A DNA stretch of 64,000 bases, from the NCBI RefSeq assembly GCF_000013445.1, contig NC_007796.1, forward strand, positions 1,834,936 to 1,898,935. The letters run 5' to 3'. The translations under genes and the position numbers were made by a program. Origin of the DNA: Methanospirillum hungatei JF-1. Lineage in GTDB: Archaea; Halobacteriota; Methanomicrobia; Methanomicrobiales; Methanospirillaceae. Below the pieces are notes generated by a model. That model had not been told where the DNA came from and made no database searches. It was given only the letters and a program-made list of their open reading frames with translations. Shown one piece after another: positions 14,269-15,697 of this stretch (its first letter is position 1; each line of letters begins with the position of its first letter).

Positions 14269-14427
14269 GGGGTCGTGGCCTAGTCCGGCATGGCGACGGG
14301 CTCCAGCGGTCTTTGCATCCGGTGCAGATGATGACAAATGGGTCTTCTGATTTGGTGATGATCCGTTGGAGCACTGATGCATATCGGAGAGACCCGTCGA
14401 TCGTGAGTTCAAATCTCACCGACCCCA
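14269..14427 (+). tRNA. tRNA-Trp (anticodon CCA) with an 85-base intron
   Basis: Acceptor stem GGGGTCG/CGACCCC is perfect with discriminator A at 14427. The D-arm contains AGTCCGGCA. Anticodon stem ACGGG (14296-14300) pairs with CCCGT (14393-14397). The spliced loop CTCCAGA has anticodon CCA at 14303-14305. The T arm is GTGAG/CTCAC around TTCAAAT. The intron interrupts after position 37, the canonical archaeal site, and is expected to be removed through a bulge-helix-bulge by the splicing endonuclease. The intron itself is a guide RNA (see the next entry). Confidence 0.95.
14307..14391 (+). ncRNA. C/D-box guide RNA within the tRNA-Trp intron
   Basis: All four boxes are visible in order: C ATGATGA (14328-14334), D' CTGA (14347-14350), C' GTGATGA (14355-14361), D CTGA (14374-14377). 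The D guide pairs with the anticodon loop and its fifth base before box D is opposite C34 (14303). The D' guide pairs with exon 2 and its fifth base before D' is opposite C39 (14393). It therefore predicts 2'-O-methylation of C34 and C39 in its own pre-tRNA. This is the established arrangement in euryarchaeal tRNA-Trp; here position 39 is C rather than U. Confidence 0.93.
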
Positions 14428-14515: not shown

Positions 14516-15697
14516 ATGTATCTGATAGGCGAAGCCCTGATCGGCGAAGGATCCGAACTGGCTCATGTGGACCTGATCGTCGGAGATAAGAACGGTCCGG
14601 TCGGGATGGCGTTTGCAAATGCACTCTCACAACTCTCAGCCGGGCATACCCCTCTTCTGGCTGTTGTACGTCCGAATCTGCTCACGAAACCGGCAACTGT
14701 CGTTATTCCAAAGGTTACTCTCAAGAATGAGGGACAGGTCAACCAGATGTTCGGGCCTGTCCAGGCTGCTGTTGCAAAGGCGGTCGCTGATGCGGTTGAG
14801 GAAGGGCTTTTTGGTGATATAAATATTAACGATATCTGTATTCTGGCCAGCGCTTTCCTCCATCCGTCAGCAAAGGACTATAACCGGATCTACCGGTACA
14901 ACTATGGTGCGACAAAGCTTGCAATATCACGTGCATTTGAAGAGTTCCCGGATGAAAAGACTCTGATTCATGAGAAAGACCGCGCTGCACATGCTGTCAT
15001 GGGCTTTAAGGTTCCGCGCCTCTGGGACCCGCCATATCTGCAGGTTGCCCTCGATATTGTTGACCTGGGCAAACTGAGATCTGTTCTCTCATCCCTGCCG
15101 GAGAATGACCACCTGATCATCGAAGCAGGAACCCCGCTCATCAAGAAGTTTGGTCTGAATGTCATCTCTGAGATTCGTGCTGTAAAACCAAACGCTTTCA
15201 TCGTCGCAGATATGAAGATTCTTGATACCGGAAACCTTGAGGCCCGGATGGCTGCTGATTCATCTGCTGATGCCGTGGTTATGTCTGGTCTTGCTCCCGC
15301 ATCTACCATCGAGAAGGCCATTACCGAAGCACGCAAGACCGGTATCTACTCGGTGATTGATATGCTCAACGTTGAGGACCCGGTTGGTCTCATCGCCAGT
15401 CTGAAGGTCAAGCCTGATATCGTCGAACTTCACCGTGCCATCGATGCTGAGCACACGTCCCATGCCTGGGGCAATATCGGTGACATCAAGAAGGCAGCAG
15501 GCGGAAAACTCCTGGTCGCAACCGCTGGCGGTATCCGTGTCCCGGTTGTCAAGGAAGCACTCAAGACCGGTGCAGATATTCTTGTGGTCGGCAGAGCAAT
15601 CACCGCAAGCAAGGATGTCAGGCATGCTGCAGAGGAGTTCCTCGAGCAGCTGAATAAGGAAGAGATCGATCAGTTCAGAATCATGACTGATTTCTAA
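14516..15697 (+). CDS. fae-hps: Bifunctional formaldehyde-activating enzyme / 3-hexulose-6-phosphate synthase
   Basis: Fusion of 393 residues. Residues 1-160 are Fae: His17, the catalytic base, in GEGSELAHVDLIVG, then PVGMAFANAL and KPATVVIPKVT. Residues 165-393 are the Hps TIM barrel: LQVALDIVDLG, EAGTPLIKKFGLNVI, FIVADMKILDTGNLE with the conserved Asp/Lys pair, EAR-rich middle and GGIRVPVVKEALKTGADILV phosphate loop. In methanogens it joins or releases formaldehyde with tetrahydromethanopterin and makes ribulose-5-phosphate for nucleotide synthesis. Ribosome binding site GGGGAAGG lies just upstream, with a possible TATA element TTTATA near 14476. A T-rich run follows the stop. Confidence 0.96.
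   Translation: MYLIGEALIGEGSELAHVDLIVGDKNGPVGMAFANALSQLSAGHTPLLAVVRPNLLTKPATVVIPKVTLKNEGQVNQMFGPVQAAVAKAVADAVEEGLFGDININDICILASAFLHPSAKDYNRIYRYNYGATKLAISRAFEEFPDEKTLIHEKDRAAHAVMGFKVPRLWDPPYLQVALDIVDLGKLRSVLSSLPENDHLIIEAGTPLIKKFGLNVISEIRAVKPNAFIVADMKILDTGNLEARMAADSSADAVVMSGLAPASTIEKAITEARKTGIYSVIDMLNVEDPVGLIASLKVKPDIVELHRAIDAEHTSHAWGNIGDIKKAAGGKLLVATAGGIRVPVVKEALKTGADILVVGRAITASKDVRHAAEEFLEQLNKEEIDQFRIMTDF

Follow-up and report, generated by a model that had tools for sequence, protein, structure and literature searches.

A predicted box C/D guide RNA in the tRNA-Trp intron of Methanospirillum hungatei and the co-change of guide and target among archaea

The intron of euryarchaeal pre-tRNA-Trp is known to harbor a box C/D guide RNA, with the sR3 family and Haloferax as precedents; the initial annotation of the present locus had noted that the system is known in euryarchaea. 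In the passages of PMC11408192 and PMC4090602 that cite Clouet d'Orval 2001, Singh 2004, and Joardar 2008, the Haloferax volcanii guide agrees with that of M. hungatei in its intron site, its box order, a D guide directed to C34, a D' guide directed to position 39, and duplexes spanning the exon-intron junctions. Unlike M. hungatei, the Halobacteria sequences we read have U39 with A or G in the guide and A41 with U in the guide, and their boxes are often degenerate (CCGA, CAGA, and GACGA) within introns of approximately 96 to 128 nt. In a review table, the entry for the tRNA-Trp intron guide reads "Cm34 and Um39 (or Cm39)" (PMC6313347), and the excised intron is stated in reviews to act in trans as well (PMC4090602, PMC11408192). 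The Pyrococcus-type intron guide, named sR50 (PMC7994747), corresponds to Rfam sR3 (RF01133), whose consensus D' guide (...CGGGUCUg) shares G at base -5 with M. hungatei, the differences between the two being confined to details of sequence. Stand-alone archaeal C/D sRNAs directed to tRNA anticodons, such as the one for C34 of Haloferax elongator tRNA-Met, share the boxes, the N+5 rule, and the proteins but are separate trans-acting genes, whereas the M. hungatei guide sits in the intron of its own target.

We analyzed a window of 64,000 nucleotides from the M. hungatei JF-1 genome, which is a single contig of 3,544,738 bases. The window contains a tRNA-Trp gene that was missed by ARAGORN (Table 1), and the previously reported 85-base intron with boxes C, D', C', and D in that order was recovered with the same coordinates and anatomy. 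Counting 5 bases back from box D and from box D' leads, as had been claimed, to bases opposite C34 and C39, and the guide base is G at both. The intron site, the box order, the 12-nt guides, and the -5 register are those of the euryarchaeal tRNA-Trp intron guide (sR3). The intron ends form bulge-helix-bulge splice sites, with CUCC of the anticodon loop able to base-pair to a GGAG close to the 3' end of the intron, and by inspection GUGCA 5' of box C and UGCAU 3' of box D could form the terminal stem of a C/D kink-turn. Just 3' of the tRNA-Trp gene, on the same strand, a reading frame at 14517-14900 resembles, by inspection, a formaldehyde-activating enzyme (fae).

Table 1. Features of the tRNA-Trp locus, in positions of the window
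Feature	Position	Strand	Basis and remarks
tRNA-Trp(CCA) gene	14269-14427	+	Rfam tRNA, 48.8 bits; cloverleaf parsing
5' exon, positions 1-37	14269-14306	+	Rfam tRNA, cloverleaf parsing; C34 = 14303, G37 = 14306
Intron, 85 nt, between G37 and A38	14307-14391	+	Sequence and minimum-energy fold
Box C, AUGAUGA (ATGATGA)	14328-14334	+	Rfam sR3 and sequence
D' guide, CAAATGGGTCTT, 12 nt	14335-14346	+	Base -5 = G 14342, opposite C39
Box D', CUGA (CTGA)	14347-14350	+	Rfam sR3 and sequence
D'-C' loop, TTTGG, 5 nt	14351-14355	+	Sequence
Box C', UGAUGA (TGATGA)	14356-14361	+	Rfam sR3 and sequence
D guide, TCCGTTGGAGCA, 12 nt	14362-14373	+	Base -5 = G 14369, opposite C34
Box D, CUGA (CTGA)	14374-14377	+	Sequence
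3' exon, A38 to discriminator	14392-14427	+	Rfam and parsing; A38 = 14392, C39 = 14393

The Rfam sR3 model matched full-length inside the intron (62.3 bits, E 2.2e-14, gathering threshold 41). Among 20,000 dinucleotide shuffles in which the splice-site ends were held fixed, a 10-pair D guide adjoining CTGA did not occur (0/20,000), an 8-pair D' guide occurred in 8, and both guides together occurred in none. Fibrillarin, the C/D RNP methyltransferase, is encoded in the genome (PF01269, 146 bits). The intron is thus very probably a euryarchaeal tRNA-Trp box C/D guide of the sR3 family aimed at C34 and C39 of its own pre-tRNA, and the earlier dual-guide reading is backed by anatomy, Rfam, and conservation, with the methylation itself predicted from sequence. 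That the main in vivo target lies elsewhere, in rRNA or another tRNA, with the tRNA-Trp complementarity incidental, is highly improbable; rRNA is the usual target of archaeal C/D RNAs (PMC7994747), but here the complementarity crosses both exon-intron junctions and co-changes with the intron ends and the exon, and the shuffles that never produced both guides exclude a chance match.

For the intron guide acting on its own precursor, protein binding, catalysis, and timing can be proposed by analogy with Haloferax. The intron would bind L7Ae, Nop5, and fibrillarin, before or after excision, and both 12-nt guides would pair across the exon-intron junctions of pre-tRNA-Trp that is still unspliced, either in cis or, with greater likelihood, in trans. 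A predicted Cm34 would be directed by the D guide and a predicted Cm39 by the D' guide. The D guide duplex comprises positions 31-37 and the first 3 intron bases (10 pairs, 7 exonic and 3 intronic), and the D' guide duplex comprises positions 38-43 and the last 2 intron bases, with the third as a possible G-U (8-9 pairs, 6 exonic and 2-3 intronic). With these intronic pairs, the tRNA offers a better target before splicing than after it. The guides do span the exon-intron borders, as had been noted, but the further claim that their action is restricted to the stage before splicing goes too far, given the 7 D and 6 D' pairs that are exonic. Pairing with the guides is incompatible with the anticodon stem and the bulge-helix-bulge, so that methylation would take place in a different fold from splicing. 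The minimum-energy fold of the pre-tRNA is the splice-competent form, with the anticodon stem made, and guide pairing therefore requires either that the precursor refold or that another molecule take part, which the Haloferax papers likewise state (PMC4090602, PMC11408192, PMC7994747).

In the Rfam model search, sR3 was identified in 10 of 11 additional members of the genus; at the level of the order the count was 110 of 120 genomes, and at that of the phylum 197 of 296, although the model misses Halobacteria, which do have the intron. No match to the pattern CTCCA...TGATGA...TGGAG was found in genomes lacking an sR3 match. In total, 323 loci were parsed, yielding 250 distinct pre-tRNA-Trp sequences with guides, and the C'-D spacing was 12 in 248 of these; for Thermococci, we relied on the Rfam consensus and published work. 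An Archaeoglobi-type tRNA-Trp intron guide also occurs on a contig assigned to Bathyarchaeota (JdFR-04; L164), which is probably mislabelled or from a mixed assembly.

Across the 250 distinct sequences, position 39 and guide base -5 formed a pair without exception (C-G in 178, U-A in 63, and U-G in 9). Every sequence with an intact guide that we read from Methanomicrobiales, Methanosarcinia, Archaeoglobi, and Methanonatronarchaeia (L204) has C39, and U39 was confined to the Halobacteria sampled. A scan of 84,980 species, blind to Halobacteria since its pattern needs TCT and CTGA, returned at least 118 canonical-box tRNA-Trp introns with G at -5 and none with A, C, or T. The initial annotation had treated C39 as a departure from U; C39 is instead usual outside Halobacteria, and a special change is unsupported, given that Cm39 already appears in the review (PMC6313347) and that C39 was predicted as a target in P. 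furiosus (PMC7668247). Guide and target have indeed changed together, separating Halobacteria (U39 with A or G) from the rest (C39 with G), although in the direction opposite to that implied. The alignment proposed as a check, covariation of position 39 with the D' guide within Methanomicrobiales, showed no variation; C39 is invariant there, and the test is consequently uninformative in this order.

Co-change extends beyond position 39. In Halobacteria, the guides carry compensating changes for those at positions 31, 39, and 41 and at intron bases 1 and -1, and in Archaeoglobi (L155, L189, L231) intron base 1 is U and is matched by A in the guide. In several Methanospirillum, C41 has become U and its stem partner A while the guide G is kept, leaving G-U, and the guide does not track changes at position 43 in Archaeoglobi or, in some Methanothrix, at intron base -1. 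In 1 locus (L061, G013), an extra base before D' moves the predicted N+5 target from C39 to A38. We collapsed the sequences to 57 distinct target-plus-guide sets and measured pairing in the core duplexes. The core D duplex was 99.6% paired, against 94% with guides shuffled among sequences and 34-56% with guides slid by 1-3 bases, and the core D' duplex was 99% paired, against 82% and 20-41%, respectively; relatedness remains after guide shuffling, so these differences reflect few independent events.

These values also bear on whether the D' guide works at all. In this lineage, activity might be limited to the D guide (Cm34), with the D' guide kept for folding or splicing or as a once-working relic, and we regard this as unlikely. 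In its favor, mass spectrometry failed to reveal methylation at the predicted C39 target of P. furiosus tRNA-Trp (PMC7668247), so that in certain lineages with C39 the D' site might have little or no activity. In addition, the D' guide reproduces the 5' strand of the anticodon stem, and changes at exon positions 41 and 43 sometimes go untracked. Yet core D' pairing exceeds that of both shuffled and slid guides, the box register is exact to the base with a -5 pair in 250/250, and the D' guide has no apparent role in the splice fold. Should C39 methylation prove to be lacking in lineages with C39, the conservation of an inactive D' guide would itself be a novel finding.

The sequences make C39 look ancestral and U39 derived, with the Rfam sR3 consensus carrying G at -5, i.e., C39. 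Two sequences, from Euryarchaeota archaeon Ods01 (L144) and from a genome of the same class as the Halobacteria sampled (L335, G214), combine C39 and A41 with U at guide base -7, which suggests that the change at position 41 preceded that at 39. In one Halobacteria family (f13), U39 faces a guide G, either as an intermediate or as a reversal. We lean slightly towards a stepwise co-evolution of guide and 3' exon from C39/C41, with guide function lost several times elsewhere. Such a path would begin with C39/C41 and guide G at -5 and -7; toward Halobacteria, C41 would change to A with guide U, and next C39 to U, the guide G being tolerated through a G-U pair before guide A was fixed. In separate lineages, guide function would have been lost repeatedly, giving intronless genes and short or boxless introns. 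The M. hungatei case is an ordinary example of an established system, and the co-change survey is a modest evolutionary extension of it. The comparative set nevertheless amounts to natural experiments on a guide RNA whose substrate is its own precursor, including a lineage-specific switch of the target base, G-U at the modified base, close relatives whose introns lack guides, and expanded D'-C' loops. With such material one can ask whether the position-39 mark is made, and whether it is selected, in lineages where it is only predicted.

Intronless tRNA-Trp genes were identified in 4 genomes (G123, G124, G140, and G145; loci L331, L332, L334, and L330), and boxless tRNA-Trp introns of 31 nt or 37 nt in 2 genomes (G125, L339; G156, L351). 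These genomes belong to several families of the phylum, and the guide has thus been lost repeatedly. A further apparent short intron (L097, G338) was dropped because it contains NN, an assembly gap. A member of the same family as M. hungatei (G077; L333/L344) has a tRNA-Trp intron of 96 nt in which the splice ends and 1 TGATGA are retained but D, D', and the guide sequences are missing, making it a natural guide-less intron, and no sR3-like match was found elsewhere in its genome. Stand-alone replacement guides were sought with TGGAGNNCTGA in the intronless and guide-less genomes, and among the part of the matches that was read, none had a C' box upstream. In 5 other genomes, the D'-C' loop has grown from 4-12 nt to approximately 58-120 nt (L308/L327 in G440, L049 in G011, L050 in G113, L051 in G109, and L052 in G008). 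The guides and the 12-nt C'-D spacing are intact in these introns, and the expanded loops hold strong hairpins, with z scores of -4.4 to -5.9 in the 4 that were folded.
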